Positions 39,101-64,000 of a DNA stretch of 64,000 nt are shown in pieces. The notes beneath the pieces are model-generated. The model did not search any database, was not told where the DNA came from, and saw only the letters and a program-made list of their open reading frames with translations. Location: positions 23,807,399-23,871,398 of the forward strand of contig NC_052394.1 of NCBI RefSeq assembly GCF_009389715.1, read 5' to 3'. The position numbers and the translations under genes were made by a program. The DNA comes from Phoenix dactylifera. Lineage: Eukaryota; Streptophyta; Magnoliopsida; Arecales; Arecaceae. The number at the start of each line of letters is the position of its first letter. Position 1 is the first letter of the stretch.

Positions 39101-39110
39101 CAAATCCCAT
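33157..39110 (-). CDS. RING / TRAF-type zinc finger / Q-rich / C2H2 protein, 1682 aa
   Basis: Exons on the minus strand are 39110-38904, 38812-38597, 38503-34145, 34047-33863 and 33238-33157. All junctions are GT-AG and the frame is unbroken. Residues 20-59 form a C3HC3D RING (C20, C23, C37, H39, C42, C45, C56, D59). Two TRAF-type zinc fingers follow (C89, C96, H108, C112 and C121, C124, H136, C140). About residues 150-650 are dominated by Gln and Pro with PQPQAQLQ repeats. The rest is low-complexity, rich in Gly/Pro/Ser, with one charged segment. A matrin-like C2H2 finger (C1614, C1617, H1630, H1636) closes the protein before a short basic tail. The RING suggests ubiquitin ligase activity, and the Q-rich part with the C2H2 finger suggests a nuclear, RNA- or transcription-linked role. 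Both are inferences. I know plant relatives only as uncharacterised proteins. A 5' UTR intron of about 1.4 kb probably precedes exon 1. Confidence 0.88.
33590..33725. repeat. CCA/CAC trinucleotide-rich tract
   Basis: Imperfect CAC/CCA repeats lie inside the last intron (33239-33862) of the RING/TRAF gene. Open frames on both strands (Pro/Thr- or Gly/Val-rich) are by-products of the repeat. Confidence 0.85.
37735..37985 (-). repeat. Coding minisatellite for Gln/Pro/Ala/Leu repeats
   Basis: Inside exon 3 of the RING/TRAF gene, units built from GGGGCTGGAGCTGGGCTTGTG (plus strand) encode PQPQAQLQ-type repeats on the minus strand. All lengths are multiples of three, so the frame is kept. Copy number is likely to vary between individuals. 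Confidence 0.85.
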
Positions 39111-40873: not shown

Positions 40874-40880
40874 TTATATA
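40874..40880 (-). promoter_or_regulatory. TATA box of the RING/TRAF gene
   Basis: The minus strand reads GCTATATAAGTC in a pyrimidine/GC-rich promoter context, so transcription should start near 40845. A probable 5' UTR donor (GACG|GTAGGCG) near 40518 and the ATG at 39110 imply a 5' UTR intron. AAACCCTAAC-type boxes occur nearby (about 40930 and 40630). Confidence 0.6.
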
Positions 40881-40999
40881 GCGGGCAAGATGCCAAAGTG
40901 ACCCGGCTCGTGCTCTTGTTCTTGGGTTAAAACCCTAACGCCTTTTCCGAACGGAACTATGAATGCGTCTTCGCTCTTCACGGAGGCGGTGGTGCATGG

Positions 41000-42482: not shown

Positions 42483-43395
42483 TATTTTAGTCCATGTTTA
42501 TATAGGAATTAGCTGGTTGTATTAGTTTTTATATTTTTTATTTCTCATTTAACTTTTGATATTTATGTCATCACTTATGTGGTACATTGTTGTCTACTTA
42601 TCATTGGTCTGTTTTACTGCTTATAGTTGGTTTGTTACATTTATCACATTTCCGATCGGTTCTTGCAAGGGTGCTCTCGCCCCTCAGAAGAAAAAAAATA
42701 TCTTATTGAATCAAAAGTTTATTTAGATGCTCAAGAGCAGTGCAAGCAGATGCGAGGTACATGGTATATAATTCAGCTTTGAGACTAAAGGTATATAGAT
42801 GGCAAATGCATGTGGCATTTTTTTTTTACCAAAAAAAAAAAAGAGAACGGTCAAAAGTTGGCCCTTCTTTTTATTTTTTTATATTTAAAATTAAGTTGGG
42901 CAAGAATAGAACTTATAAGTATAAATAAGAACTATATGAAGCAGTTTATTATCTATTAATAAATAAAAATTAAATTTGGATATTACATTCATCATTTTTT
43001 CTATTTTTTTAAATTTTTTGGCACTCAAATTGAGCAGGTCGTGGGATTACTTCATTCTCCTCCATTAAATCACCGGCTAACTTTTTTTTTCCTCTTCCTA
43101 CTCTTCCATATTCTCTCATTTGTATAGCAGTTTGTAGAATCATCAACATGCCGAATCGTATCCAATAAAATTTTGTTTAAGATTTTAAATTCTATGAGAT
43201 GGAGATGTCCTGATTTTTTTTTATATGATTGGATTTCTTGCTATCCCAATCTCTTTTATTTTTTTATTGACAAAACTGAAAAGTGTTAGATTAGATATAT
43301 GACACAGTGGAACAGAGCAAAGAGTGAATATGTACCTAAGTCTTGATTTAAGAGGAGAGCTGGAAATTCGGCACATGGAATGTGTATGCCTGCCT
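42483..43395 (+). repeat. 0.9-kb direct repeat, copy 1
   Basis: This segment is nearly identical to 49267-50180 in the same orientation; I see only a few substitutions, such as TGTGG/TGCGG and AAATGC/AAACGC. It starts with TATTTTAGTCCATG and ends with GTGTATGCCTGCCT. No terminal inverted repeats, target-site duplication or recognised coding were found, so it looks like a segmental copy and not a transposon. Confidence 0.93.
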
Positions 43396-44189
43396 CCTCC
43401 TCTCCTCAATTCCTTTTTTTTTTTTAACAACATAAAAAGATCATATACTTCTAATATAAATATGTCCAATAAAGTTAGCAAATTATAGAATATATTTCGG
43501 ACAGTTAACAGATCATTCCAAATCACTTCTTTAGGGTGCTCTACTACTAATGAGGCAATCTAGTCTGTAGTCTCATGATAAATATATCTAACCACCAGTC
43601 CACCAGAGAGACATACCAGATATCAGGAGCAAGTGAGCAGTCTTCAAAACCCGCCTTGCATAGGATTTATTTAATCTTCGATGGTAATGAGATCGGCCCT
43701 CAAAACCTACTTCGATGGTCACAGAGGATGCTAGTTGCCAGATCCGGCACTCCACCTTAAACTTCCGAGTTGAAATGAAATATCCTAGCCTGCAGATTTT
43801 CCATGAATGTATTCCATCCAGTTAAAGTTTTCTCCCTTTCCCTTAAATCTATTTCCAGTTCAAGAAAGTTCTACCATCTTTTACATTAAAAAAAAAAGAA
43901 GCTAATGCAAATCCTAGTTACATTCTAGTTTCACCAAATTTCAGCACAAACCACAGATAATGTACTTGCATAAAATTTGCCGAAATTGAAAGCAAACCGA
44001 AAACTTTACCTTATTCGAAAGGGCAGCATTTTTTTCGGATTTCGAGAAAGAATCCTCGGCGCAACTCTTGACGGTCTCGACCAGCTTCGTCCCACTGACA
44101 TCGTCGCGAAATCAATTTTCTCGTTGAAAGTCGCCGTTTAACTGCTGGATCGATCTCGACGGCCTAGTTTGCATCATGCGATAAACTAA
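43396..44189. other. Intergenic stretch with a possible orphan exon
   Basis: Mostly AT-rich and non-coding. At about 44010-44105 the minus strand has a short coding-like frame (DDVSGTKLVETVKSCAED...) ending exactly at a good donor (AAG|GTAAAG at 44009). No start codon in frame and no partner exon were found. It may be a left-over first exon of a gene cut by rearrangement. Confidence 0.3.
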
Positions 44190-44206
44190 GGCCCTGTTTG
44201 GGGGAG

Positions 44207-44246
44207 CTTTTGGAGGGCCAGAAAGTACTTTCTGGCCCTCCAAAAG
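44207..44246. repeat. 40-bp perfect palindrome
   Basis: The left arm CTTTTGGAGGGCCAGAAAGT is followed immediately by its exact reverse complement, with no spacer. It lies in the left subterminal region of the Harbinger-like element and could extrude as a cruciform or fold as a hairpin in RNA. Confidence 0.95.
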
Positions 44247-44719
44247 TACTTTTAGATGAAAAACCGTGTTTGGTAAATTTTTCAAAAAGCTGTTTCAGCT
44301 TTTGCGGAAAGCTGAAAACAGCTTTTGGAAGGAAGCTCCAATTTGGAGCTTTTGGGAGGAAGCTGTTTCAGCTTTTTTGGAAAGCTGTATTTTTGACAAA
44401 AATGCCCATATTAAAATAACATAATTACATAGTTTATCCCTATATAAACCTAAAAATCTGCTAGAGCCAAGAATCCAAGCCGTCAGACTTCCTTCCGTAA
44501 AAAAAGGTATTTTTCTTTTCAATTTTTGTATGCATCTCTTGAACCACATTTTAGAAGAAAAAAATTTTAATCCTTTCCATACCTTTCAAAATCAATCTAT
44601 TGTTTTTTTTTTTATCATCAACCTCGCGGCCCACGCTGAGGTCCTCCTCGAGCGTGGACCACGAAGAAGAGCCCCTGGACCGCGGAAAATTATTTTATGG
44701 AAAATTATAGAAAATTATT

Positions 44720-45440
44720 ATGGAAAATTATTTTATACTAATAATTATAATATTTTATACCTTTATTTTTGTATTATACTATAAATATAATATCATATTA
44801 TATTATATCATAATACATTAATATGTTATGTTAAATAATTTAATATTATGTTATATTATGGAAAATTAATTTATACTAATAATTATAATATTTTATACCT
44901 TTATTTTGTATTATACTATAAATATAATATCATATTATATTATATCATAATACATTAATATGTTATGTTAAATAATTTAATATTATGTTATATTATGGAA
45001 AATTAATTTATACTAATAATTATAATATTTTATACCTTTATTTTTGTATTATACTATAAATATAATATCATATTATATTATATCATAATACATTAATATG
45101 TTATGTTAAATAATTTAATATTATGTTATATTATGGAAAATTAATTTATACTAATAATTATAATATTTTATACCTTTATTATTGTATTATACTATAAATA
45201 TTGTATTATATTACATTACATTATAATACATTAATATGTTATTTAAAATAATTTAATATTATGTTAAATTATGAGAATTTAATTTATACTAATAATTATA
45301 ATATTTTATACTTTTATTATTGTATTATACTATAAATATAATATATATTACATTATATCATAATACATTAATATGTATGTTAAATAATTTAATATTATGT
45401 TATATTACTAAATATTAATTTACTCTAATAATTATTTTAC
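44720..45440. repeat. 138-bp AT-rich tandem array, about five copies
   Basis: The landmark TATACTAATAATTATAATA begins at 44734, 44872, 45009, 45147 and 45285, and a decayed copy lies near 45420. The period is therefore 137-138 bp. The first four copies are very similar and the later ones diverge. The array fills the centre of the Harbinger-like element. Confidence 0.93.
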
Positions 45441-45870
45441 TATTATGCTATATTAACATAATATTATTTTATATTACAATAATATTATACTATATCGTAT
45501 ATTTATGTATTAATTTTTGTTATGTTTTATTATGTTGTGTTGTATAATACTATGCAATGTCCTTTATGGTAATTTTGTCATATAAAAGTACTTTCTCACT
45601 TTGTTTACCAAACACAAAACAAAGTACCACAGCACTTTATGAATGTAGTTACCAAACAGCAAACAGCTTTTTATAACAGCTCTACTTCAGACAGCTCTAC
45701 TTCCAACAACTCTACTTCCAACAGCTCTACTGCCAACAACTCCCCCAAACAGGGCCTAAATCATTCCCGAAGTTTCGATCGATGAGAATGTCCTCGTTAG
45801 TGGCCCATACATGGACTTTGTCTAGTCCAGGGCCAGATGAACTCCGGCCCAATACTGTTGCAGACCGGCC

Positions 45871-45878
45871 CTTTATAA
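45871..45878 (+). promoter_or_regulatory. TATA box upstream of the truncated SYP81 copy
   Basis: CTTTATAA lies in a GC-richer promoter-like stretch and is followed by a C/T-rich leader (45895-46110) typical of plant 5' UTRs. A 5' UTR intron probably runs from about 46248 (AAG|GTAGAT) to about 46701 (CTGCCTCAG). The Harbinger-like element ends only about 115 bp upstream. Confidence 0.5.
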
Positions 45879-46543
45879 CCAGGGGTTGTCTTTGTCTTCC
45901 TCAATCTCTCTTCGTCTCCCCGTTCCTTTTCCTTCCTCTCTCTCTTCATCAGTTCATCTCCTTTTTCTTTCTCCACTCCATTCCTCCATTCTCCACTCTT
46001 ATCCTAATCCTTCCATCAATCCTAACGAGCCAATCACCGGCGACGCGCACCACATTCAGATCTCTTCTGCTCGTCTGATCTGCTTTCTTTCTTTTGTCGA
46101 TTTCAAGTACCGGAGGCTGTGGGTCATCCAAATTCGAGTATAATTATTTCTACGTAGAGCAGCCATCCGCACTAGAACTTGAAAGTGGAATTGATTCGGT
46201 GGTTATATCAAGAAATCGAATGGAACCCTAGCCTGAACTTGAAGAAGGTAGATTCTTTTCATCTGTTTGTGCAACAAGTCGTCCTTTTCTTATTCTCCTG
46301 GTGGATCGTTTGGAAGCCCCAGCTTGGTAAATGCTGCAATTGTTGAAATTCTGTTTTTTCCCCTCTGTTTACTGGATTTTTTTGGAGTAATTTATTATTT
46401 GATCTAGGGCTTATCCCTTTTTTTCGTGGTGGATTGCTTTGTGACATTCTTCAAGGAAAAATATCGCAAAATCTTTAAATATAGAGAATGGATATGAATG
46501 ATCAAATTGGTGCTAGAATGGTTTTGAATTTAAATAACATGTT

Positions 46544-49272
46544 CACTGTATATTTCTTTGCCCTCTGAAAATTCTTTTTCAATTATATACTTAGTTTTGT
46601 CTTTCTTTTAAAAGCTGACAGCACTAAGATTAGCTAGTTTGTGAGATATTACATTTGTCATGTTTGAGCTAGCATTCATTTGAATGTTGTGTCTGCCTCA
46701 GATGCTGTAAAGAGAAAAGGGAAGTGACAATTTAGATAACAATGAGCACTTGCTAAAGTGGATGCTTGCTTACAATTGGTGAACTCATGGCCAATGTTAG
46801 GGATAGAACTGAAGATTTCAAGGATGCTGTCCGTGCTGGGGCTCTTTCCCTCGGATATACTGAGGTTGTTGATTATTTCCAGTACCTTTTGTTTTGTTCC
46901 TTTTGGATGTGGGGCAGGCAAAAGCTCCTGAACCTGATTTATGCTTTGCTAACCACTTTAGGAAATTAAATTTAATGCTTTGAGCTATTATACTATGTTA
47001 AGTGGCAATACCTGCAACATGTAAGTGATATGCATGGCATATGAAAAATCCAAATGCCATGTAATTATATTCAGATTCAAATTTAATGCATGGATCTGAA
47101 ATTGTCTTATAGAATTAGCATCTAAAGCCCAAGCCTGGGGTGAACTTGCAAAAATTTTGATTCCTATATCGTAAGCAACTTGTTTGCATGCATTAGCTTT
47201 GAATTCGTTTGTCTTTTAACAACAGTTGCTCATGGTCCAATTTCACATTTGACAGTCTAAATTGGCTGCAATCTTGGCGTCCTTTATTATGCACAAGCCA
47301 CCCCAAAGGTCACCATTTACAAAAGCTGCACTCAAGACGGTATGAGAGGCGGCTCTGTCATCTTGATCTCTTCCATATCTTTTGTATTTTAATGTTTTCT
47401 TTCTTTGTCCTTTGAGACGGTTGTGATTTAGATTTTGGAAAAAAAAACATGTGTTATTCTATGAGAGGTTAATGTTTACATTTTTTATGTATTTATTTAT
47501 AGCTCGAAAGCATCGCAGAATTGGAACGTTTTATTGTAAAGCATCAGAAAGATTATGTGGATTTGCATCGCATTACAGAACAAGAAAGGGACAACATTGA
47601 GCATGAAGTGAGTTATTCGCCTACTTCCATTAACATCTTACTCTGTCCTATAACATATTAAATTGTTTTGTTCTATCGATAGTTTTTTTTCATATGAATA
47701 TAGTGTGTGCAATCTCTTTTGCCTTTTACACCTCTTCTCTAACAATTTCTTGACAGTTGGCATCTTGCAATTTTTTATCAAGAGAACAAAGTCAGAGCTA
47801 TGTTTTTGAATGGAAGTAACCCAAAGATTCCAATTAGCAGAGACATGTGACTATATAAGATGATTCTGACTTCCACAAATGGTCTGATTCGCTCACTGTT
47901 CAGTGCTTGAGTCATTCTTCATTTTCTTTCAGATCTTGGGATGTAGATTGAATGTTGCCTAATTTGAAAGCTAAATCAATGTGAGGGACAAATTGGATAG
48001 GGAACATTTTTTAACATATTTAACAATTGTGTGTACTTTAGATGACACCCTGATTTGGCACAATCTTTTCTAGCATTTGGTCTGAGTTTTTTTAACTATT
48101 GAATGTTCTGGGACTTTATCTATATATTTTAGGTAGATTCATGTGCATGTTGTCCCTTTGATTGCCTAGTGTCTTGTAAGAAAAATATCCTTCGATAATT
48201 CTCCTGGAAGTTGGTGGATGATAATTGGGCCCTCTGCTCAAAGTGATGTTATTTGGTGTAGACATTGACCTTGACACATGGTCATTGTAACTAGATGTGC
48301 TGAAGAGAAGGGCATTACAGAAATGCATTATGTATTCTTGCTTTGCTGTTAGTTGTCTCATGCAGGATACTTGTTGAAAGCTTTAGAGGTCCTACTAGTT
48401 GTGTATCCACTGCTTAAGACTCATTATTCATTTACTTTTATAGGCAATCATGAAATCCTAACGTAAATATTTGGCACATAATATGTTACTTCAATTGTGG
48501 AACAGTTTTTTTTTAATGTTTACTCAGTAGTATGATCTATTTCACATGGCTTATTTTTAATGATTGGTGGAGCACTGCTGGGATATTCTTGTTAATCTTT
48601 GTCTTTCTATTGATTAATGAGTTCTCTTTTCAGGTTGGTGTTTTTGTAAAAGCATGCAAGGACCAGATAGATATTCTTAAGAATAGAATACATGATGAAG
48701 AGAAGAACGGAAATTCTAAGACATGGCTTCGCATACGGGATGATACTTCTCATGCTGATATGGTAGCTCACAAGCATGGTGTGGTATGAATTAATGACCT
48801 TTCTTTGTGCATGATTCCTGGAAATAAACAATGGGGTTATAATGTTTTCATTCCTGCTACCTTGTTGTTTAATATGCTGGTTATAACATGTCTTGTAAAA
48901 TCTATCAAGAAATTGCTTTATTCTATAGGTGTGCTCCAAATTTTGCCATACTACTTATGATGTCATTTTTCATTTCTTTAGGAAAAATCAAAAATTGGTG
49001 GAGCTGCATCATCAACCATTTTGTTAATATATGAAATAACAGCAGTAGACGGACAAAGATGAGGATATGTGCCCTTGAAAGTATAATGGTCTAGTGTTAA
49101 TTATCAGTATGATGGCTATGTCAATGTGTGAGATTAGGAAAAAAGAGTGTATCTCAAAGTTGATTGTCTTTCTATATTCTGCCTGGTTTCCTATTATCAT
49201 GTTGTGCTTCTGTGAGTGCTTGGTTGCATTAGTCTCATTTGTCGGTCTGCAAGGCTCCTGAATCACTATTTT
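46544..49272 (+). repeat. Inverted repeat arm A (5' half of SYP81)
   Basis: This arm is nearly identical, as reverse complement, to 61277-64000. It holds exons 1-4 and introns 1-3 plus part of intron 4 of SYP81. Differences are scattered single bases and short length changes in homopolymers. The arm may extend further left, but its partner reaches the window edge at 64000 (which matches 46544). Confidence 0.95.
46787..48783 (+). pseudogene. SYP81: Truncated SYP81 copy, exons 1-4 only
   Basis: Exons 46787-46864, 47256-47339, 47503-47607 and 48634-48783 match exons 1-4 of the complete gene on the other strand. They encode residues 1-139 with intact splice sites and frame. The one amino-acid difference I see is Lys for Arg near the end of exon 4 (AHKHGV against AHRHGV). 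Exons 5-7, which carry the SNARE motif and membrane anchor, are absent; homology stops within intron 4 at 49272. The promoter-like region is present, so a transcript is possible. Read-through past exon 4 would add only one Val after HGV before a stop. Any product would have the N-terminal domain with its Sly1-binding-like peptide but could not fuse membranes. It is classed as a pseudogene because the functional core is missing. Confidence 0.88.
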
Positions 49273-50180
49273 AGTCCATGTTTATATAGGAATTAGCTGG
49301 TTGTATTAGTTTTTATATTTTTTATTTCTCATTTAACTTTTGATATTTATGTCATCACTTATGCGGTACATTGTTGTCTACTTATCGTTGGTCTGTTTTA
49401 CTGCTTATAGTTGGTTTGTTACATTTATCACATTTCCGATCGGTTCTTGCAAGGGTGCTCTCGCCCCTCAGAAGAAAAAAAATATCTTATTGAATCAAAA
49501 GTTTATTTAGATGCTCAAGAGCAGTGCAAGCAGATGCGAGGTACATGGTATATAATTCAGCTTTGAGACTAAAGGTATATAGATGGCAAACGCATGTGGC
49601 ATTTTTTTTTTACCAAAAAAAAAAAAGAGAACGGTCAAAAGTTGGCCCTTCTTTTTATTTTTTTATATTTAAAATTAAGTTGGGCAAGAATAGAACTTAT
49701 AAGTATAAATAAGAACTATATGAAGCAGTTTATTATCTATTAATAAATAAAAATTAAATTTGGACATTACATTCATCATTTTTTCTATTTTTTTAAATTT
49801 TTTGGCACTCAAATTGAGCAGGTCGTGGGATTACTTCATTCTCCTCCATTAAATCACCGGCTAACTTTTTTTTTTCCTCTTCCTACTCTTCCATATTCTC
49901 TCATTTGTATAGCAGTTTGTAGAATCATCAACATGCCGAATCGTATCCAATAAAATTTTGTTTAAGATTTTAAATTCTATGAGATGGAGATGTCCTGATT
50001 TTTTTTTATATGATTGGATTTCTTGCTATCCCAATCTCTTTTATTTTTTTATTGACAAAACTGAAAAGTGTTAGATTAGATATATGACACAGTGGAACAG
50101 AGCAAAGAGTGAATATGTACCTAAGTCTTGATTTAAGAGGAGAGCTGGAAATTCGGCACATGGAATGTGTATGCCTGCCT
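49267..50180 (+). repeat. 0.9-kb direct repeat, copy 2
   Basis: This copy of 42483-43395 is fused directly to inverted arm A. The two share TATTTT at the junction (49267-49272), and the same six bases occur at the corresponding point of the complete SYP81 gene. To the right of 50180 the sequence runs on towards the 3' end of the YOS1 gene and no longer matches copy 1. Confidence 0.93.
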
Positions 50181-50639
50181 GTAGAAGGGTTTATATTTCA
50201 TAAATTATTATAACCTACAAGCTAAAATTGGTTGGTAGAATATAAAATTTAATAACCTAAAAATATCACGATGAACCATTTTGGTCGCATGAAAGAAGTC
50301 AACATGGTTCATACCACTGCCAAGCTACACAAGCACTGTATTAACTTGCCGCAATTGAAAAAGACCCACCTAGCTTTCCTTCATCTGCTTGTCCTGGATG
50401 ATGACTCGCAAGATTCTGAAAGGAGCTCAAATGGCAATCCACAACCTATTTTTAACCGTTTCTTTCATCTATTTGCCATCTCAAATCAACTAGAATCATC
50501 AACACCATGATGAACATCAACAACACATGGAGAAAATTGGATCCCCACACAGTGCAGGCACGTTTAGTTGAATTACAGTTAAATGAAGTTCAAACAAACA
50601 AAATTTTGACAGGAACAATTGATCAATGACATGTCAAAC

Positions 50640-50876
50640 TCAGCCGGAGACCAACTTCACAAGAATTGTGATAACATTTAGAATTATAAGTGGAACTCTC
50701 AAATACTGTGTTGCATAGATAAGCCCTATGAGTTGGCCCTTCAATGACTTTGCTTGACCAGTTCCTGAAACTTCAGAGAAACTCCACCCTCTAGGAGCAA
50801 GAAATCTGTCCTCATTCAATATTGCCAATGCATTTGCAAGAAGCAAAAAACCCTCAAGCAATGTCCACAAGCCCAT
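50640..50876 (-). CDS. YOS1-like ER-Golgi transport protein, 78 aa
   Basis: The whole protein lies in one exon and matches the Yos1/IER3IP1 family from the first to the last residue (MGLWTLLEGFLLLANALAIL, then IYATQYLRVPLIILN, ending VKLVSG). Two hydrophobic segments, about residues 3-20 and 48-75, flank a short loop. The yeast relative binds Yip1-Yif1 and is needed for COPII vesicle traffic from ER to Golgi. Length and sequence are typical for the family. An acceptor at 50894-50895 (GCAG on the minus strand) puts only 17 bp of leader in this exon. The rest of the 5' UTR probably lies in an exon upstream of about 53057, beyond a 2.2-kb intron. Confidence 0.93.
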   Translation of the reverse strand: MGLWTLLEGFLLLANALAILNEDRFLAPRGWSFSEVSGTGQAKSLKGQLIGLIYATQYLRVPLIILNVITILVKLVSG

Positions 50877-50893
50877 TTCTGCACAATGCAGTC

Positions 50894-53057
50894 CTGCTTT
50901 ACACCAAAAATGTTTGCCAGGTTATATAGATCTCAACAGCTTGTCAGATAACTACTTGGTTCTTGAAGAGGCAAAAGGAAGCGCCCCCTCCCTCTCCCCA
51001 CCAAAAGAAAAGCATTAAGTTGATGGGTAAATAGCTCATTAGAGTGCTAACCAAGCCACTACTGAATCCGACCATGTTGGTGCCACAGGTAACAAAGACA
51101 TTATTTTCAAGAGATGTCTTCACACTATCAGGACATGTTCTTTGAGGTCATCTTTTCAGCATTTAATTAAACTAAAGTCCACTTTAGTTTTGTTAAAATT
51201 GAAGAACCGTAGACCATACAAGCAAGTAGCTTCAAGGGCTACTGAAAGACAAAGTAAAAAAGAGTTGGGGGTGGGGGGAAATCTGCTCCATTACAGAATA
51301 CAGATATAGTAGCAGCACTGCAATATTTAATCTAAAGATAAATATATTTGCTTCAAAGTTCAAAATATTCTTTATCCATGTAATGGTTGCTCACAATTTA
51401 ACCATTATTACAGGCCAAACTACAAAAGGTTTTTCTTAGCAAAGTATATCTCCAAACATGTGCTTAATCCGTTCTTCAAAGTATATTATCTCCAAGCTTG
51501 ATAAAAAACAGTAATCCCTTAACATGTTCTTCTAAGTACCAATATCAAAGACTAGTACAGCTGTTAACTACCTCATAAGCTATTGGGAACTCCGGGATTG
51601 GAATGATACGCACCTAATGACAAGTCCCTTAACAGCTTAATAAGAGAACAAACTCATTTTCCATCTACAAAATATTTGCTCCACTGAGCTAGAAAGCTAA
51701 TTTATATAACTAATTTCCTCCAGCAGACATAACCTTTATCCAATTAAATCGTAGATGCTCTTACTTTACAGTTAAAAAAGGGCGGCATTAGTGCATTACA
51801 TGCATTTGTACTCGAATAACATGCTTAAAATTATTCACGATAATCCAACAGCAAATCAAGCACCCCACAGAACAATGACATTTAACATTTGCATCGTTCT
51901 CTTCAACCTTTCTTGCATACTGTCGCTTTCTATTTATTTACGCTTCCTCTTCATTGTCCAGTCTCCATTATCACTCCCAGAGCCTAAGCCTCCAAGTCCT
52001 AGACTTCAGTTTCTTATAGTTTAGAAATAGAACCTAAATTATAGAACAAATCCAGCCTTTATAGTTAGACTCTCACTGTGACATATCTGGTTACTTATGC
52101 CCTCCTGACTCGAATATAGGCATGACCCTGAAAACCCATGTATATTAAAAATGAAAAACAGAAAAAGAAAAAGTTTTTCAGTGCTTATTAACTGGATGTG
52201 TTCTCAGGTCATCAGCATTCACTTTGATGGAAGACTGATAAGTACGCTAAACCTCTATAACAAGCTAACCTTGTAAATTCTACTTCCCTGGGAACAGTGT
52301 TAGATCATGGTTCAAAGCTTGAACAGTACATGCCACCAAAATGTTCTACGAATCGCAAGGCTAACTCCAATATCTATTCAATTATGATATGAAGTTAAAA
52401 ATGAAGTAGTCCACAATGAAGATCTTAAAGAATCAAAGCTCGCACAAAGTGCAAGATTAGTACTATAGAAGAAACAAAATGCTAACCCATAAGATGCAAA
52501 TAAAAGGAAATACGATCTCGTCTGATCGCAGTTTCTCGGGCAATCTATTCAAGTTCATAACAAGCAAGATCACAAATCCGTCATACAAGCTAGTGGGGAT
52601 GTAGAGTTAGGGTTCGATGGGGCAACAAATTTATGACGTCCAATTAAATCAAATCTTCGACCAAATCAGGCGCCACATAACACCCGCATATTCTGCATAA
52701 TTTTTGAAAAGGGGATTTGCTAGACCAATCGAAATCTTCAAAGGAACGAAAACAAATGGAAAAGAAGGACCAATAAATGGTAACACGGGAAAGGGATCAA
52801 AAAATTTACCTTACAACGGCTAGAATTAACCAAGAAGCTCAGTTTAGGCAATCCTATCGCATCAATCAAAGAACCGTTTTAGAGAGAAAAAAAAAGGAAA
52901 TCGACCTGCGAATCCTCTCGATTTTTCCATGCTTCAATCTTGCTCGATTAAAAAAAAAATACAGACGAAAAATCACACAAAAAGGGTACGCGATTATTTT
53001 GCAACGAATACGACTTCCCATTCAAGAGAAAGAAAACTGAAAAGAAAAGAATGAAAC
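50894..53057 (-). other. Probable 5' UTR intron of the YOS1-like gene
   Basis: On the minus strand a donor (ATCCAG|GTTTCATTC) lies at about 53057 and an acceptor (TAAAGCAG) ends at 50894. The interval has no convincing coding frame; the longest, at 52777-53040 on plus, is Arg/Lys/Ile-rich and looks random. The upstream GC-rich stretch (53060-53420) would be the first exon and promoter. Confidence 0.5.
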
Positions 53058-53429
53058 CTGGATCTCTCCCTTCGGGGAACGTTGCCGCGCTTTTCTCCAA
53101 CCTGCCGTGTTATCCTGGATGAGGAAGAATGGCGAATCTCTCTAAATTTCGACTTCGACCTCGACCTGGTTAATCTAGACCATTCCAGCTGGAAACGGAC
53201 CCGCTTCGAAGCGGCGCAGTCCGGGTCTACGCGGTCAAAGTAAGATGAAGGTACCGGAGGATTCTATATCTTCCTTCTGGGTCCTGTCGAAGAGAAGCCG
53301 GAGCAAGCCAGAAACTCCAGCGGAAACGAAACGATCGGGTGTAGGAGGAGATCAAGAAGCCCGAGGCGAAATCCAGCGAGATCTCCGGTTGAAATTTCGA
53401 GCCAGAGGGGCTTTGCAATGTTAGTGGCA

Positions 53430-55080
53430 ACTAAAATTAACGTTTATGGTCTGTTTGTGTGTGGGATAATAGCGATGTTACGGTAATGCCAGTGTTTTTG
53501 TAGGGTGATATGGATATCTGGTTGTAATTTCGCATTTTCTTATTATGAGAATTCATTTCTAGCATATGCTACTAGGTGAGTCGTAGCGCAATGTGCTAAA
53601 ATATTGTTATATGATTTCTAAAATTACTCTAATAAAAACACTAATAAAAAATAAGAATATAAGATGATATAAAATTATGCTAATAAAAAAATATTATATC
53701 TTTAAAATTATGCTAACAAAACGGCTTAGAAACTATTCAAAGCCCCTCTGGAAGATTTAACATAAAATCCATTCTTATGTTCTCTCTGTACGGGGGGGTA
53801 TTAGTAGAGATTTGAAGGCAGTTTGAGTGAGTTGGGCAATGGTAGGAACCTAAGATTCTGGCATCTTATTTGAAGACCTTTTCTAAAGAGCGCTGAAATC
53901 TAATACTTCGGTAGCATCACGTTGGAGCTGGAGGAGGCATTGCTCGACTCTTCTGATCAATGGACGTTGTGTTCCTCGTTGTCGCCTAAATGGTGGAGCT
54001 GTGAACTTTAGGAGCCGAGACAGAACCAACCCGCAACATTTGATAGCATAATTTTTTTTCATTATCTCCAGTTGATCAACTTGATGCCCAGCTGATCTGC
54101 AGATTTGTTTCTGCACTACCTTCATATGCTTAGCCAGAGTTTCTTCTTCTTCTTCTAATAATCGGAGTTGATAAAACTGCTGCCCATGTCCACGGAAGGC
54201 CTCGTACGTCAGAAAAACTAGACGTGCAGATCTAAAGATCCATGCATCGTGCTACACATTAAGATCATCATTGATTGGGTTTTTGATGAAAAACAGGAGG
54301 TATGGCCGGATGAGCCTGTGTCCGCACATCTCTTGAATTCAATAGATACAGCTCAAGAGGAAATTGCTGCATCTAAATATCTATTAAAAAGCTACATTGT
54401 TCAGAAGTCCCCCAGTAACGACATACAAATTTCTGAGCATCCAAAATCACCTGAAGGATCCATCTTCATTATCACACCAAAATAAAAAGATGAAAAGCGC
54501 CGCTTCAAAAGAATGTATGAGGAAACAAACAAATTTTTGGGGAAAAAAAAAGCATGGCCAGTATTGATTCTTCTTTATCCAGTTTCTGGGTATGTCTATG
54601 AAACGCTGCACGAGTATTTGATTACCATCTTCTGGAAAAGAAAAGGATGGTCATGAAGTTGCCCTGAAAAGAAAGTAACAACCGATATTTGACCAAATGA
54701 AACATCTACTACTGAATAGAGTAACACTCAGCAGTAAAGTAGCTCGCACTAGCTAATATTTGTTACTAGACCTGACGAAGATTTTAGAATTTGATGGTTC
54801 AAACCAAATTTCCCTTGCGAATAAACAACATGATGCTTTTGTTTCTCAAGTCCAAAACAGTAGCAGAACACTTTACTACCTATTCGAGAAAAAAAACAGT
54901 AGCATCTATTCACGTTCAAATCTTACATAGGTTGCAACTGATATTCCAGAAAGAAAAAACTCCTCACGAAGCATGACACAGCAGGTGGATGTAGGCGCTA
55001 AAAAGATGAAAGACCCTTCAGACTGTTCACACTAGTAACAACAAACGACCAGTCACACTTAACTGAGAACAAAACACAAA
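53430..55080. other. Intergenic stretch with unassigned coding-like frames
   Basis: 53440-53760 is AT-rich and repeat-like. At 53886-54215 the minus strand has a frame of about 110 codons with no start in its upstream part (GHGQQFYQLRLLEEEEETLA...KVVQKQICRSAGHQ) that looks coding. At 54249-54485 the plus strand has another (SIDTAQEEIAASKYLLKSYI). I recognise neither; they could be gene fragments. No other feature was seen. Confidence 0.3.
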
Positions 55081-55108
55081 CAGGACGCCTGCACTAGACC
55101 TTTTTCCT

Positions 55109-55588
55109 TCAAAAGGATCCTCGGCCAGAGATCTCGATGGATTTCACCTCCGACTTCTTGGCCTCCTCCTTGGGAACGGTCACCGTGAGCACTCCGTTCT
55201 CCACGGCCGCCTTCACCTGGTCCATCTTCGCGTTATCCGGCAGCCGGAACCGCCTCAAGAACTTGCCGCTGCTCCTCTCGACGCGGTGCCACGTGTCGGT
55301 CTTTTCCTCCTGCTCCCGGCTCCGCTCGCCGCTGATCTGGAGGAGGTTTCCCTCCTCCACCTCCACCTTCAGCTCCTCCTTTTTGACGCCAGGGAGGTCG
55401 GCCTTGAAGACGTGGGCCTCCGGGGTCTCCTTCCAGTCGATGCGGGCGTTGGCGAAGGCGGACGAGTCACTAGGAAGGGAAAGACGAGGGAAGGAGGAGA
55501 GGGAGGTGTCGAACGGGAAGCCCTCGAAGGGATCCCAGGGATCGAAGATGCTCGACCCAAAACCCCAGCCGCGAGGGATAAGCGACAT
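55109..55588 (-). CDS. Class I cytosolic small heat-shock protein (HSP20), 159 aa
   Basis: This intronless gene starts [18 protein letters not shown], the usual class I start. An alpha-crystallin domain spans about residues 48-143: [20 protein letters not shown], then LLQISGERS and FRLPDNAK, and finally [11 protein letters not shown]. The C-terminal I-x-I motif (IEI, 151-153) used in oligomer assembly is present. These proteins form dodecamers that hold unfolding proteins during heat stress. Length and lack of introns fit the family. A perfect heat-shock element and a TATA box lie just upstream, so strong heat induction is expected. The GC-rich coding strand produces long antisense frames that are not genes. 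Confidence 0.96.
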
Positions 55589-55711
55589 TTTCTTCTAAAC
55601 GATCAAGGAACTAAAGAAAAGATAGAGGGAAAGATGATTGAGACGACGGATAGCTTTTGCAAGACGAGTATTCCTAGGAACTTCCGCGGATGAGGGGAGG
55701 AAGAAAGAAGG

Positions 55712-55721
55712 AGATATTTAT
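55712..55721 (-). promoter_or_regulatory. TATA box of the HSP20 gene
   Basis: The minus strand reads CGATAAATATCTCC about 125-135 bp upstream of the ATG, between the heat-shock element and the coding region. It predicts transcription from about 55685. Confidence 0.6.
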
Positions 55722-55736
55722 CGAGTGAACAGATCG

Positions 55737-55749
55737 TTCGCGAAGCTTC
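55737..55749 (-). promoter_or_regulatory. Heat-shock element (three perfect nGAAn units)
   Basis: The minus strand reads GAAGCTTCGCGAA, which is GAA-nn-TTC-nn-GAA with no mismatch, about 16 bp upstream of the TATA box. This is the expected heat-shock-factor trimer site for a small HSP promoter. Further GAGAAG-type half sites lie just upstream. Confidence 0.85.
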
Positions 55750-56189
55750 TCTGACCTTCTCGCCTGGCGAGTTCGCGACGGTACTACGGTCTTCTAGAGA
55801 GACTTGCTGGCTGCTGCGGAAACGGCAAGGTTGTAAATGGGCTGGGTGGGCCTAGGCCCGAAGCAAGCTCCGAACTAAAAGATCAGGCTAGAGCGCGGCC
55901 TCACCTGTAGGGGTGCCGAAATCCGACCCAGCCTGCCAAAATCCATCCCCAATAAATTGAGGTCGGCGACTGGTTTCACGTTAAATCAGTATTGATCGCA
56001 AATGGGTGAGGTTCGGTAACCCGATGGGTCACCTGGGATTATCCAGTAGGCAACTAGTCGGCTAGGAATTATCCAGTAGGGACCTTGAAGCTCCGAGTTC
56101 ATCCTAGAGGTGCTCTGATCATCTAGAAGCTTTCTTAGGGCCATATTCCGACTGGAGGGTTCTAAGCAAAAGGGGCCTGAACATTTCTC

Positions 56190-57010
56190 CTATCTTCTTT
56201 AGTTGTGATGTGAAGGAGTCTGTTGACTATGCTCTCTTCCACTGGGAGCACGTGGCCTAAGCCCTAACTGTGGAGGTTAGCTAAGGCCTCTTTGGAATGC
56301 TTATCATATCTCGTTGGCTACCTATATTGCTTATCATATCTGGTTGGCTCGGAATGCTTGATTTTTTTGAGAAAGCAACTTACCTCTAATATTTTTTTAT
56401 TGGAGAGAGCCCTTTGTTCATGATGCGGAGATCATCCAATTGCACACTGATGGAATATCTTTGATGCTACAAGAGCTCTTTAGCTCTTGTAGCATCCACG
56501 ACGATGTTCATATCTTGGAAGTTTTCACCCCCGAGCTTCCTCAAAGTAAACTTCAATGGTTGTGTGTTGGAAAGCGGCACCAGCAGTGGAGTGGGCTTTA
56601 TGATCCGAGGCTCGGATTCGAGGCTAGTTGTTGCAGGTGGTAGCTTAATTTTTGATACCTCGGTGCTTGATGCAGAATTAAGGGCTGAGCAGGTATTAGC
56701 CATTATGTCCGACGCAAATTGGGAGTTGACTCCATCTTTATAAAGAGTAATTTTGTCACGGTGATCTTGTGGATTCAGGGCCAAGTTAGGGAGTTGGGTG
56801 TCCATCCCTCGTTACAGTACATTTGGAGCCTATTGAGAGGAGGCACCTAATTTATTATTACATACATATACTGAGAAGCTAATGGAGCCGCAGTCTGGAT
56901 GGCCTCTTTTGTTGCCCATCATTCCAACGATGGGTTGTGAACGGATGGTTTTCTTGCCTCAGGGGCATTTTGAGACATGCTACTTTTTTGATTTTTTTAG
57001 ATGTATTCGT
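56190..57010 (+). mobile_element. L1-type LINE 3' remnant (zf-RVT and RNase H)
   Basis: The plus strand shows VKESVDYALFHWEHVA at about 56210-56260, resembling the zinc-binding domain after LINE reverse transcriptase. An RNase H domain follows at about 56515-56930: PPSFLKVNFNGCVLESG, then RGSDSRLVVAGGS and VLDAELRAEQVLA, and finally IYREANGAAVWMASFVAHHS. The domain is split by stops and frame changes, and the first catalytic Asp position reads Asn (NFNG). The reverse transcriptase is missing, as usual for 5'-truncated copies. Confidence 0.75.
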
Positions 57011-58469
57011 ATCAGAATCGTATGAATCACCCGATTTAGCAAAAACAAAATTATGATATAGATGAAGCTCTCTAATTTCAGAATTTCTTCCATGTAGTTC
57101 AGATCGCTGTTTTTCTTTTTTTTAAGCATATTATCAAAAGTGATGGACATGAGGAGTTATATGATTTAACACATGGAATTTCATTTTAGCTGGTTTTATC
57201 TTTAGCTAATTTAGAAATATCATATAAGCTAAATTTTTAAATTGATTATGATGATGATGCTTTATGAAATTAAATTTAATTTTATTGTATGTGATCTTTG
57301 TATGCTATCTTTTGTCTTATTTTTTAGTCGCACATATGATTGATAAGTGAAAACTTGAACAAATGATTGATAAGTGAAAACTTGAACAAGTTGATGGTTG
57401 AATGTATATTTCCTATCTTCCAACTCGATTATAAATAAATCAGATATTAATGTAAAGGTTGAGAATTTCGTCCCCGTCGCACCAATTACCACCTCTAGCC
57501 AAAGGAGTCATAGCTATCATGTCAGGGCCTGCCCTAATTCAGGAAATACTTCTGGCCGGGCCAGGTTCTAAAACCTGAGGCTAGACCTGGTTTTTTCCAA
57601 GTCGCGAATTGAAGCCGAAAGGTAACAGTTCAAGACGAGTCATGGACAGATAGCTGCTTTGAGAGGCCAACAATCTCCTCAAACAAATTGGGATGAGACC
57701 GGATCTAAAGTCCCAAGAAAGAGAAGCGTGGATATTATCTAATTTCTCTACCATGCGCTTGCACCAGTAGGGATCCTCGCAAACGTCGTTACGCGTCGGT
57801 ACAAGGCTACCAGTTGGGAACTTGGGATCCTCACAAAAATTAATGCAGCACCGGTTCCTTTACACCAACTAATTGTACGCACATAATATGGATGAAGCAT
57901 GGAGGATTTGCACGCTTACACGGTACTTTCATTTCACCAGAGGTACACGGGAAGCTGATAGATCTTAAAATGTATATGCAGATCATGAGACTTCATTCAT
58001 GTGGAACTAGTCTGCACGCTTGGAAGTCAGTGATTGATCGCAGGATTCCCTTTCCATGGTCGCCACCAAGTTGGGGTGGGGTCATAAAGGACGGGAATCA
58101 GCTGTTTTCTCGGCTTAAATCCGGCATCGCATAAAATCACCGCATGACATCAACTGATTGGACGAGGTATATCGTACACTGAATAACTTGTTCATAAATA
58201 TCAGGTAGCATCAAACCCTTCTCACTCATAGGCACAGCCAGCGAAAGCATGATTTTTGTCATTGGAAAACTTGGGGCCTCCAAAGATGGTAATAGGATTT
58301 ATGCTTGCTTGCCTACTTTTAACATTAAAAGGATCATCAGATTCAATTTTAAAAGTAACAATACTCACTATGGCCATAAAACTAATTATAGATCTGTACG
58401 CTTGGTTTACTGCTTTAAGTTATGTCATTTGGGCATCAAGAAGAAAGGAATGAAAAATTACATCTCTAC
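57011..58469. other. Intergenic stretch downstream of SYP81
   Basis: AT-rich up to about 57460, then mixed. No gene was recognised; a frame of 80 codons at 57892-58134 matches nothing I know. The 3' UTR of SYP81 must lie in the right-hand part. Confidence 0.45.
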
Positions 58470-61400
58470 TCAGCTATACCAGTCGAGAAAGAGAATGGCG
58501 AAAGTAAGGACAAACAAAAAGAGCAAAAGAAAAGTTCTGCTGCTGCTATTTCGCTGGACTGCTTGAGAGAGTTCCTTGTTACCTTGCTCCACATTCTTTG
58601 TAGCTTCAATTGCCTGAGAACCACAGAAAAGATGCTCAGAAATCAGATTTGCATAGAACAATATTAGTAAATCTAAGTACAAGATTCACTTTTATTTTGG
58701 AAATATCGAGCACATTGACTAGAACCACTAAAAATAAGTATGAAATGCAGGAGTGCCTATGAAATCAGTGAGAGGAGTTCTGAATTATGTGTATAAAAAC
58801 TAAAAGGCAAATAAAAGAGAGAAAAAAAAGAAGCAAAGGACTATAGAAAGTTTATGTTTTCATTATCGACTCAAAATACAAATAATTGGTTTTCATCACT
58901 TTATTTTCTTTCCCTGTTTTTTTGCCTTTTGTTGTGTAAATCTGCCTCTCATTAAACACGCAAGCATGACTTGTTTTCCTAAATGGAATAGCAGCCTCAA
59001 GGAGTTGCCATCATTTCTTCCAAGCCTTTGTCCCGAAAAATACAAGAGCAACCACTATTTGTTTTTCTTACCATTGTCAAAAGGATGACTGATCCATCAT
59101 CTCATTGGGATCCACCCCTAGCACAACATAACAGTGATCCTAAACACCTTGCAATGCTGCAACAGCATCTAGAAGGAAAGCTGGCTTCAAAGGATTGCTG
59201 CTTCCTTCTGCCCATGAGTTTCCATACTTCCAGAATACATAACCATATCGACATATGGGACCCATCATGGCTTTCTTTTAACCTCTATTGTAGCCTACAG
59301 GGTCTTCAGATGCCTACAGACTACACAGACTGACAGGCCAAAGAAAATAAAAAGCAGCAGCTCTGTCAACACTCGCCAATGCCCTCCTGCTGGTAACAAA
59401 TTCCTCATATAGCTCCGACCTAGACAGAACTTGCATACCTCTTGTAGAGCAGATACCATAGCAAAAACGTCCTAATGCCAGGATTTTCACATTTCACCAT
59501 TGTCCTCAACAACAATCCCAATGGATAGTCCTAGGCCAGAGATCTACCCATCAATTCCACATTAAATTCCATGTGACTACAACCTGAAACTTATGCGATC
59601 AACAGGGAACTCTACTTGATACTCACTAGTAGTACAGAAATCTAGATGTTCTTACGATATTACTAATGAGAGATTTTCATGTAAAGAAAAGAAAAGGATA
59701 CTAATTGGCAGATGGTTCAGTCTAATTATATTATCTTCATGACATAGGAAAAAAAAACCCAATACAAATAGCAATAAGCAATATGTCCACTAATGAGGCA
59801 AGGAAGGTAGTCAGGTATCTATCAGATGAACCAAGTGAGGAACTAAATATCAACATTAAACAAACAAGCTGCTAACCTGTTCATACAAATGCTCAATCTG
59901 CTGAGCTTGCTGTAGAACATGGGTCGACATGAGATGATTCAATGCTGACATCTCCACCATCTTAGTTTCTGTTTCTTGAACAGCATCAAGGAGACCCGTC
60001 AACTCTACCTAATAAAGTACATTGTGAAAAGAAATTTATCAATTGCCAAAGAAGACCTTGACTTTTCCGAAAATATATAGTTAAACTAAAATCAACTCTT
60101 ACTCATTTTAAAGATTAATAACCTGAAGAGCTCTTGTTTCATCGTCCAGAAGTTGATCCTGGACTTTCACAGGTCCTGAAGGCAGCATTTGCTCTCCAAG
60201 ATCTGTAAGCTCCGGTTTAGAGGCTTCAAAAGATTTTGAGTCAGCTATTCTCGGCATCTTTCTTCTTGGCATTGCCCTATTAATAGCATCCTGAAAGCGT
60301 ATAGATCTAAGCCGGTCAAACCGAGCAGTGACCGAGTGGAGCCGCTCACTCAGAATCAAAACCTGCAGTAAGGAAGACAATTAGCAGGAAAATTGTAAAC
60401 ATGGAATTCAATCTTAAAAGCCAAAATACAAGCAAACCAAATCCAGAGGAATTACAAATGGACACATCAAAATCCTGCATCCACAGAAACTACCTTTACC
60501 TAATGAAATACTCGACAAAATGCTACAAAAGATATTCTATTAAGTAATGCAACACCTTTCAATTGATCAAAAAGATCAGACTGCCCCCTTTATCTCGCAC
60601 TTGTAAGAACAAGAGTAAGCAACATCAAACAACAATGCACCTATATACCTTTCTTTTCTAACTTGCTCAAACTCCCAAAATGGAAATAAAAAAAGGTAAT
60701 TCTTTTGCTGGTTGAAAAGCCACTAGCGGTTCATACAATCACCTACAGGTCACATTTGTATGCCCATATTCTTTTTTTTATTTAAAAAAATATGTTAACA
60801 GTGTAATAATTAAGCTCAAACCTAATCTAGTTGAGCCATAAATCAACCATGTCAAACTGGGGTAACAGTACATTGGTCAGTCCAACCTAATAGCAGACAA
60901 GAAACCACCTCAGTCTTGCTTGATATGAATTCCCAAGGACATTTTGGAAGTCAATATAAGTGAGCTGAGGTTCAGAGTAACATATGAAAGAATCTAAAGT
61001 CACTGTAGACCATTATCTTTCATAATGGAGACAGTAAAGTTAAGAAAGATATTTCAGCACACAGACTGCAAAAATTGTTGTGCCATAAAGATTCTTGCAA
61101 GGAAATATATGAAATTTTCATTAAGAACTAATGCTTCCTACAAAATCAAAATTCATGGTTGAGCAATTACTTTAAGTCCAATAGATGTATCTGTAAATAT
61201 TCCAAAAAAGTTTCACTAGATAAACGTAAGAACAGAAAAAAACAGCCACATCCACAAGATACTTTCTTTATAGAGAAAAATAGTGATTCAGGAGCCTTGC
61301 AGACCGACAAATGAGACTAATGCAACCAAGCACTCACAGAAGCACAACATGATAATAGGAAACCAGGCAGAATATAGAAAGACAATCAACTTTGAGATAC

Positions 61401-63757
61401 ACTCTTTTTTCCTAATCTCACACATTGACATAGCCATCATACTGATAATTAACACTAGACCATTATACTTTCAAGGGCACATATCCTCATCTTTGTCCGT
61501 CTACTGCTGTTATTTCATATATTAACAAAATGGTTGATGATGCACCTCCACCAATTTTTGATTTTTCCTAAAGAAATGAAAAATGACATCATAAGTAGTA
61601 TGGCAAAATTTGGAGCACACCTATAGAATAAAGCAATTTCTTGATAGATTTTACAAGACATGTTATAACCAGCATATTAAACAACAAGGTAGCAGGAATG
61701 AAAACATTATAACCCCATTGTTTATTTCCAGGAATCATGCACAAAGAAAGGTCATTAATTCATACCACACCATGCCTGTGAGCTACCATATCAGCATGAG
61801 AAGTATCATCCCGTATGCGAAGCCATGTCTTAGAATTTCCGTTCTTCTCTTCATCATGTATTCTATTCTTAAGAATATCTATCTGGTCCTTGCATGCTTT
61901 TACAAAAACACCAACCTGAAAAGAGAACTCATTAATCAATAGAAAGACAAAGATTAACAAGAATATCCCAGCAGTGCTCCACCAATCATTAAAAATAAGC
62001 CATGTGAAATAGATCATACTACTGAGTAAACATTAAAAAAAACTGTTTCACAATTGAAGTAACATATTATGTGCCAAATATTTACGTTAGGATTTCATGA
62101 TTGCCTATAAAAGTAAATGAATAATGAGTCTTAAGCAGTGGATACACAACTAATAGGACCTCTAAAGCTTTCAACAAGTATCCGGCATGAGACAACTAAC
62201 AGCAAAGCAAGAATACATAATGCATTTCTGTAATGCCCTTCTCTTCAGCACATCTAGTTACAATGACCATGTGTCAAGGTCAATGTCTACACCAAATAAC
62301 ATCACTTTGAGCAGAGGGCCCAATTATCATCCACCAACTTCCAGGAGAATTATCGAAGGATATTTTTCTTACAATACATTAGGCAATCAAAGGGACCATG
62401 CACATGAATCTACCTAAAATATATACATAAAGTCCCAGAACATTCAATAGTTTAAAAAACTCAGACCAAATGCTAGAAAAGATTATGCCAAATCAGGGTG
62501 CCATCTAAAGTACACACAATTGTTAAATATGTTAAAAAATGTTCCCTATCCAATTGGTCCCTCACATTGATTTAGCTTTCAAATTAGGCAACATCCAATC
62601 TACGTCCCAAGATCTGAAAGAAAATGAAGAATGACTCAAGCACTGAACAGTGAGCGAATCAGACCATTTGTGGAAATCAGAATCATCTTACATAGTCACA
62701 TGTTTCTGCTAATTGGAATCTTTGGGTTACTTCCATTCAAAAACATAGCTCTGACTTTGTTCTCTTGATAAAAAATTGCAAGATGCCAACTGTCAAGAAA
62801 TTGTTAGAGAAGAGGTGCAAAAGCCAAAAGAGATTGCAAACACTATATTCGTATGAAAAAAAACTATCGATAGAACAAAACAATTTAATATGTTATAGGA
62901 CAGAGTAAGATGTTAATGGAAGTAGGTGAATAACTCACTTCATGCTCAATGTTGTCCCTTTCTTGTTCTGTAATGCGATGCAAATCCACATAATCTTTCT
63001 GATGCTTTACAATAAAACGTTCCAATTCTGCGATGCTTTCGAGCTATAAATAAATACATAAAAATGTAAACATTAACCTCCCATACAATAACACATGTTT
63101 TTTTTCCAAAATCTAAATCACAACCGTCTCAAAGGACAAAGAAAGAAAACATTAAAATACAAAAGATATGGAAGAGATCAAGATGACAGAGCAGCCTCTC
63201 ATACCGTCTTGAGTGCAGCTTTTGTAAATGGTGACCTTTGGGGTGGCTTGTGCATAATAAAGGACGCCAAGATTGCAGCCAATTTAGACTGTCAAATGTG
63301 AAATTGGACCATGAGCAACTGTTGTTAAAAGACAAACAGATTCAAAGCTAATGCATGCAAACAAGTTGCTTACGATATAGGAATCAAAATTTTTGCAAGT
63401 TCACCCCAGGCTTGGGCTTTAGATGCTAATTCTATAAGACAATTTCAGATCCATGCATTAAATTTGAATCTGAATATAATTACATGGCATTTGGATTTTT
63501 CATATGCCATGCATATCACTTACATGTTGCAGGTATTGCCACTTAACATAGTATAATAGCTCAAAGCATTATATTTAATTTCCTAAAGTGGTTAGCAAAG
63601 CATAAATCAGGTTCAGGAGCTTTTGCCTGCCCCACATCCAAAAGGAACAAAACAAAAGGTACTGGAAATAATCAACAACCTCAGTATATCCGAGGGAAAG
63701 AGCCCCAGCACGGACAGCATCCTTGAAATCTTCAGTTCTATCCCTAACATTGGCCAT
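58470..63757 (-). CDS. SYP81: SYP81, syntaxin-18-type Qa-SNARE of the ER, 310 aa
   Basis: There are seven exons on the minus strand: 63757-63680, 63288-63205, 63043-62939, 61915-61766, 60362-60123, 60008-59877 and 58613-58470. All junctions are GT-AG and all are in phase 0. The protein has the same length as I recall for Arabidopsis SYP81 and matches it throughout. It begins MANVRDRTEDFKDAV, whose DRTxxF core resembles the Sly1-binding peptide of Sed5/Ufe1-type syntaxins. An N-terminal helical domain runs to about residue 200. The SNARE helix lies at about 235-290 (NHLMSTHVLQQAQQIEHLY onward). A C-terminal membrane anchor (TFLLLFLFVLTFAILFL) ends DWYS. The family works in Golgi-to-ER retrograde fusion at the ER. 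The start is the first ATG in frame. Its 5' half is duplicated in inverted orientation at 46544-49272. Confidence 0.95.
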
Positions 63758-64000
63758 GAGTTCACCAATTGTAAGCAAGCATCCACTTTAGCAAGTGCTC
63801 ATTGTTATCTAAATTGTCACTTCCCTTTTCTCTTTACAGTATCTGAGGCAGACACAACATTCAAATGAATGCTAGCTCAAACATGACAAATGTAATATCT
63901 CACAAACTAGCCAATCTTAGCGCTGTCAGCTTTTAAAAGAAAGACAAAACTAAGTATATAATTGAAAAAGAATTTTCAGAGGGCAAAGAAATATACAGTG
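61277..64000 (-). repeat. Inverted repeat arm B (5' half of SYP81)
   Basis: This is the partner of 46544-49272. Homology begins inside intron 4 at 61277 and continues through exons 4-1 and the region upstream of the ATG to the window edge, so the full arm is longer than 2.7 kb. The two arms are about 12 kb apart. Confidence 0.95.

Follow-up and report, generated by a model that had tools for sequence, protein, structure and literature searches.

We analyzed a 64,000-nucleotide window of the Phoenix dactylifera genome (C3:23807399-23871398, on the 24.7-Mb contig C3) that carries the gene SYP81 and an inverted copy of its 5' half. The inverted copy, the left of two arms, appears to be a DNA-repair insertion: judging from the sequence, the SYP81 5' region was probably (we would put it at roughly 0.7) copied backwards into a break by one repair or template-switch event, which also doubled 913 bp of the target. 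The donor is still present with a complete gene, the two copies of the target enclose the insert, an old paralogue of the target has the uninserted order, and each arm carries a private transposon whose empty site is kept in the opposite arm. The origin in a single event, like the enzymatic route, is what we infer from this arrangement. The analysis was of one assembly sequence, representing one haplotype. In addition to the window, 10 kb to its left, 40 kb to its right and 80 kb of a colinear block on contig C12 were compared, and searches covered the genome of 773 Mb in 2391 contigs, with all candidates scored for the arm pieces, the target segment X, SYP81 exons 4, 5, and 6, and the stretch 58470-61276. 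Positions above 64000 are window coordinates continued rightward along C3.

Two unequal arms of an inverted repeat

Repeats were detected by BLASTN of the window against itself and then against the window plus 40 kb of downstream chromosome. The first comparison gave an inverted match of 46544-49272 with 64000-61277 (2729 columns, 98.68% identity, 31 mismatches, 4746 bits), which bears out the inverted duplication of the SYP81 5' half, 12 kb apart, reported in the initial annotation of this DNA; the spacer between the arms (49273-61276) is 12,004 bp. The limits reported there for the arms, 46544-49272 and 61277-64000 or more than 2.7 kb, hold for the match and fall short of the true extent, position 64000 being only the edge of the window. 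In the second comparison the longest single inverted alignment paired 45756-49272 with 64790-61277 (98.8%, 3.5 kb), a second piece paired 43668-44189 with 65305-64787 (97%) and the outermost piece paired 43388-43672 with 68009-67739 (81%). The pieces are separated in the left arm by a 1567-bp transposon and in the right arm by a 2433-bp solo long terminal repeat (LTR). Overall the inverted repeat reaches to about 43396 on the left and about 68005 on the right, and without the later transposons the copied unit is about 4.3 kb, about 1% different over most of its length. The left arm (43396-49272, plus strand) reproduces the SYP81 5' region in inverted orientation, its donor being the minus strand of 61277-68005, and has since received a transposon. 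The right arm, the donor, covers 61277-64000 within the window and runs on to 65305, followed by the solo LTR at 65306-67738 and an end near 68005.

The whole-genome search found exactly two near-identical places for each of 46544-49272, 45760-46543, and 43673-44186, the last having an additional 70% match on C12. For the distal piece of the left arm, D (43396-43672, plus strand), a search with 43420-43672 returned two long matches, one to itself and one to the right arm (83%), and three further partial matches of only 46-53 bp.

Exon limits were placed by eye and by hand from GT/AG signals and the reading frame. The intact gene lies on the minus strand at 58470-63757 and has seven exons (63757-63680, 63288-63205, 63043-62939, 61915-61766, 60362-60123, 60008-59877, and 58613-58470, stop included) encoding 310 amino acids. 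The truncated copy, spliced by hand in the same manner, occupies 46787-48783 of the plus strand and consists of exons 1-4 (46787-46864, 47256-47339, 47503-47607, and 48634-48783). These four exons are common to both arms; exons 5-7 have no counterpart on the left and lie within the spacer (60362-58470). The left copy retains introns 1-3 and part of intron 4, within which it ends. Its four exons are open (139 codons), and read-through into intron 4 adds a single V before a stop, to give 140 residues. The near identity of the exon sequences noted in the initial annotation was confirmed, as only 1 of 417 bases differs between the arms, a change of K to R in exon 4.

The gene is presumably SYP81, a name in line with the Pfam domains of its product. 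The intact protein matched Syntaxin-18_N (PF10496) at 69.2 bits (cut-off 30.6) and SNARE (PF05739) with an E value of 1.4e-5 and 25.4 bits, just below the cut-off of 26.8; its C-terminus is hydrophobic as judged by eye only. The truncated left copy matched Syntaxin-18_N at 71.1 bits. In the whole-genome search, exon 4 was found twice and exons 5 and 6, searched as protein, once each, and the stretch 58470-61276 was also found once. Besides the gene at 58470-63757, no SYP81 gene with a 3' half was found in this genome, and in annotation the left SYP81 model, a truncated copy, should not be counted as a second gene. The view of the arms as an equal, symmetrical pair was rejected: the right arm is part of the intact SYP81 gene itself, and the left arm is an insertion flanked by a target duplication.

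Target duplication, joins and private transposons

A direct repeat absent from the initial annotation pairs 42483-43395 with 49267-50180 (914 columns, 99.45% by BLAST, four substitutions and a 1-base gap). The first copy, the 913-bp segment X (42483-43395, plus strand), is continuous leftward with the local sequence X1 (40073-43395), and the second copy, X' (49267-50180, plus strand), is continuous rightward with 50180-50302 and the flank of a YOS1-like gene. X and X' abut the left arm on its two sides. A paralogue of this sequence, X2, lies to the right of the window at 69481-72892. Its part 69481-72811 aligns to 40160-43395 and its part 71883-72892 aligns to 49267-50302 through the insertion point, at an identity to X of only 70-73%. 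Because this old paralogue runs uninterrupted through the insertion point, the uninserted order of X is taken as ancestral. X2 polarizes two of the four X/X' substitutions, and at both the left X has the X2 state. At the joins, donor and target share two microhomologies, the 4-bp GCCT, which sits in CT-rich sequence, and the 6-bp TATTTT. A simple formula puts the chance of such matches at random joins at about 0.016-0.027 and 0.001-0.003, respectively, so that the overlap is larger than is usual for such joins. The exact left join is blurred by the CT-rich sequence.

From this arrangement the following course of events is proposed. A break or stalled fork in X would have started the event, and repair would then have used 61277-68005 as template, copying about 4.3 kb of the SYP81 5' region backwards; it would have entered via the GCCT microhomology and left via TATTTT back to the start of X. 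X would have been used twice, such that 913 bp came to flank the insert as a direct repeat. The route may have been template switching of the microhomology-mediated break-induced replication (MMBIR) type or the repair of staggered nicks with filler DNA. Later, each arm would have gained its own transposon, the other arm keeping the empty site.

The left-arm transposon (44190-45756) has terminal inverted repeats GGCCCTGTTTGGGGGAG, a target site duplication of TAA and several internal tandem repeats of 136-138 bp. By its end motif it is PIF/Harbinger (Tourist)-like. It is a high-copy element: the query 40000-46544, which held other sequence too, gave 140 matches among the best 40 of 3535 candidates, mostly to the element. 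Some of its other copies are clustered at C16:8283593-8288199. The right arm keeps the empty site of this element with a single TAA. The solo LTR in the right arm starts with TG, ends with CA and has the target site duplication TATTT, and the left arm keeps its empty site with a single TATTT. Among the best 40 of 1666 candidates, 12 other near-full-length places were 95-99% identical to the solo LTR, and four pairs of these relatives lie about 4.4 kb apart, as expected of the two LTRs of one element.

The presence of transposons in both arms might suggest that the gene fragment was carried in by a transposon (Pack-MULE or Helitron) or arose by retroposition, an origin we consider extremely improbable. 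Both transposons are internal to the arms and have an empty site in the other arm, and a 913-bp target duplication fits no transposon. Inspection of the junction bases by eye, without a dedicated scan for the termini of Helitrons or MULEs, revealed neither a terminal inverted repeat nor a short target duplication at the outer ends of the left copy. Retroposition is excluded, as the left copy keeps introns and the upstream region; transposon capture of a SYP81 fragment we judge unlikely rather than excluded.

Patch-mediated tandem duplications in plants were reportedly described by Vaughn and Bennetzen in 2014. Those attributed to nick repair in a rice follow-up study (PMC7971508) resemble the present locus in the direct duplication of local sequence at the flanks, a signature of break repair. 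Perfect tandem duplications of more than 1 kb, the longest of 4.9 kb, are reported there, but the share of tandem duplications among all events declines from 70% to 5% once 200 bp is reached. Thus, long ones are a small share there, whereas here a 4.3-kb inverted copy of a neighboring gene lies between the target copies. For the grasses, PMC3445842 describes genes that move as part of the filler DNA when a double-strand break is repaired by synthesis-dependent strand annealing, in which the donor stays. The two cases are alike in that a piece of a gene is copied into a break and the donor is kept; they differ in that the donor here is only 12 kb away, the copy is inverted and no transposon insertion was seen at the break. 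MMBIR, as set out in PMC2621351, is similar in giving complex duplications with short microhomologies at the joins, although it is described for human copy-number disease, whereas the present case would be drawn from one plant assembly. A literature search for this configuration, with partial coverage of the literature, returned general mechanism papers and none on this locus. The locus is an unusually legible example of a plant half-gene copied backwards beside its source: the donor, the target duplication, the microhomologies, the empty-site paralogue and the later transposons are all preserved, and therefore the order of events can be read.

Competing origins and the age of the insertion

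The C12 block (490001-534025) is colinear with 8-90 kb of the window region and is probably homeologous. Its order from the shared left flank is YOS1, a match to 51.4-53.3 kb, a 51-bp HSP20 match and a pfkB gene, with YOS1 and pfkB oriented as in C3. Since the YOS1-to-pfkB orientation matches that of the C12 block, the spacer is without net inversion, and a net inversion of the spacer was rejected on the C12 order. The lack of net inversion is also the end state of a different history, one in which staggered breaks, at X and at the SYP81 5' region (Y), accompanied an old inversion and left inverted duplicates of both at its two ends, and later recombination between the SYP81 arms flipped the interval back. 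Hence, the C12 order is neutral toward that history rather than decisive. Staggered breaks can produce inverted duplications at the ends of an inversion, and on paper these steps yield exactly the observed order of X, Y-reverse, X', interval and Y. They require two events where one suffices, and we regard such a history as unlikely.

With one diverged patch set aside, 19 of 3038 positions of the main arm differ (0.63%), and the divergence of X and X', 4 of 913 (0.44%), is not different from that of the arm outside the patch (Fisher P 0.63), which speaks for the repair insertion. Several other observations weigh against such an insertion made in one recent event. The patch itself, 47695-48173, was picked by scanning and differs at 16 of 479 positions (3.3%); in a permutation test that repeats the scan, its scan statistic was reached in 9 of 1000 permutations (5 of 1000 without exons). 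The core of D differs at 15 of 216 positions (about 7%) versus 41 of 4023 for the remainder of the arms (P 6e-8). This core was counted by hand and leaves out a run of poly-T/CT and the positions bordering a 25-bp gap, which hold 13 of the 28 differences and 36 of the 252 aligned columns of untrimmed D (11% off the donor). To square such non-uniform divergence with one recent event, gene conversion or an allelic mosaic has to be invoked as well. Moreover, X2, at 70-73% identity, is the only witness of the empty site, and the comparison with C12 is not clean: the 51-bp HSP20 match is inverted and the YOS1-pfkB block lies elsewhere relative to the 73.7-90 kb segment, both of which are probably older matters. 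Lastly, a 913-bp tandem duplication falls outside the bulk of the nick-repair events in the accessible rice data (PMC7971508).

Two ages of the insertion have to be considered: either the event was recent and the right arm is now a mosaic of alleles, or it was old and gene conversion has since overwritten the greater part of the repeat, and the patchwork fits both. An old insertion, in which repeated gene conversion would have homogenized the arms and X/X' and left out the part beyond the solo LTR, is compatible with the repair origin and is a serious possibility, at somewhat under even odds. It would account for the patchy divergence (about 7% in the D core and 3.3% in 47695-48173 against 0.63% in the rest of the main arm) and for the jump in divergence at the LTR insertion point, as a conversion block would produce. 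It would also require a separate conversion of X and X' that ended at a similarly low divergence (0.44%), and the patches are explained, too, if the event was recent and the right locus later recombined with another allele. The agreement of X/X' with most of the arm leans slightly toward the recent event with an allele mosaic. The exons carry 1 difference in 417 bases, against 34 in 3095 for the rest of the main arm (P 0.12), so that the likeness of the exons is no proof of selection or conversion. The initial annotation had proposed that the arms are recent or kept alike by gene conversion. Most of the repeat is indeed little diverged (0.63% in the arm, 0.44% in X/X'), with patches of 3.3% and about 7%, a pattern compatible with either.

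The initial annotation also raised an assembly or haplotype artefact, in which the second arm would be the other haplotype or a misplaced chimeric read, and indeed a difference of about 1% and private transposons would also fit two haplotypes. The copy, however, is inverted, truncated inside an intron and joined at microhomologies in low-copy sequence, and it is flanked by its own 913-bp duplication with four substitutions. Missed-adapter palindromes would have no 12-kb spacer. No further contig carried the arms, X, 58470-61276 or, among the best 40 of 323 candidates, 50300-56000 at high identity; the searches took in the spacer apart from 56001-58469. On the evidence of the intronic truncation, the microhomology joins and the target duplication, to which the private transposon of each arm adds, an artefact seems highly unlikely.

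The spacer and a possible flip of SYP81

The spacer contains a YOS1-like open frame (50643-50921, minus strand; Pfam PF08571 Yos1, 90.6 bits) and an HSP20 open frame (55112-55594, minus strand; PF00011 HSP20, 112.6 bits). The arms appear long and similar enough to recombine, such that the flip of the YOS1-HSP20 interval foreseen in the initial annotation may well be within their capacity. The content assigned to that interval was incomplete, in that exons 5-7 of SYP81 are included and the intact gene would be relocated. After a flip, the left promoter and exons 1-4 would be continuous with exons 5-7, and the truncated half would be the one on the right. Because the breakpoint lies in intron 4 and exons 5-7 are inside the spacer, one intact SYP81 would be expected in either state, and the layout predicts a flip that never breaks the gene. 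The spacer was seen in one orientation only, that of C12, in the one haplotype.

Flips of factor VIII break the gene. Unlike factor VIII, the repeat here holds the promoter and exons 1-4, with the rest of the gene in the flipping interval, so that an intact gene would remain. The likeness to the factor VIII intron 22 and intron 1 inversions (PMC7507428) is that of inverted arms capable of reversing the sequence they enclose. The SYP81 event is of a known kind, its unusual twist being that a later flip would move a working gene without destroying it.

The two promoter contexts differ in that the Harbinger-like element lies about 1.0 kb upstream of the left ATG and the solo LTR about 1.5 kb upstream of the right ATG. 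One could imagine a self-preserving switch in which exchange between the arms shuttles the one SYP81 gene found in this genome between two positions and promoter contexts, with an intact gene left every time, the inversion segregates freely and the left half-gene makes a soluble 140-residue syntaxin-18 N-terminal fragment. We consider this unlikely.

Upstream of SYP81, the outer part of both arms holds a decayed fragment of a pfkB-type gene, presumably FLN-like. The left copy (43767-44164, minus strand) aligns to C12:533358-532941 at 70%. The pfkB-type gene on C12, at 532150-534025, has two long open frames with Pfam PfkB matches. In the whole-genome exon search SYP81 exons 4, 5, and 6 were not found on C12. 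That C12 keeps the pfkB-type gene, of which C3 has only a fragment, and yielded no SYP81 exons suggests reciprocal gene loss.

Older direct repeats, X1 (40073-43395) and X2 (here 68731-72892), which are 73-88% identical, flank the whole YOS1-HSP20-SYP81 block. On C12, the block is instead placed after the segment homologous to 73.7-90 kb. It seems that the YOS1-HSP20-SYP81 block was relocated, or duplicated and thinned, long ago, with the same X-insert-X layout as the recent event. Within X2 there is also a 662-bp tandem duplication (68819-69480 and 69481-70142) with one difference (99.85%), a further recent duplication in the same local sequence.

Other features of the spacer and its surroundings include copies of the HSP20 region at 54864-56003 and 90408-91532, which are inverted, 90% alike and about 34 kb apart; the copy at 90408-91532 is oriented as the short C12 match. 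A dense cluster of matches to the HSP20 gene is found on C8 at 5.60-5.77 Mb. A 122-codon open frame in the spacer (53886-54251, minus strand) had no Pfam match. The open frames at 56465-56811 and 76246-78248 resemble, by eye, RNase H and other parts of non-LTR retrotransposons, and 56470-56811 (minus strand) had no Pfam match. Elsewhere in the window, a 1484-codon glutamine/proline-rich open frame (34079-38533, minus strand) is adjoined by a RING-finger open frame at 38874-39131, which matched eight Pfam models, one of them above its cut-off, and a tandem pair of about 146 bp at 96% identity lies at 14969-15253.

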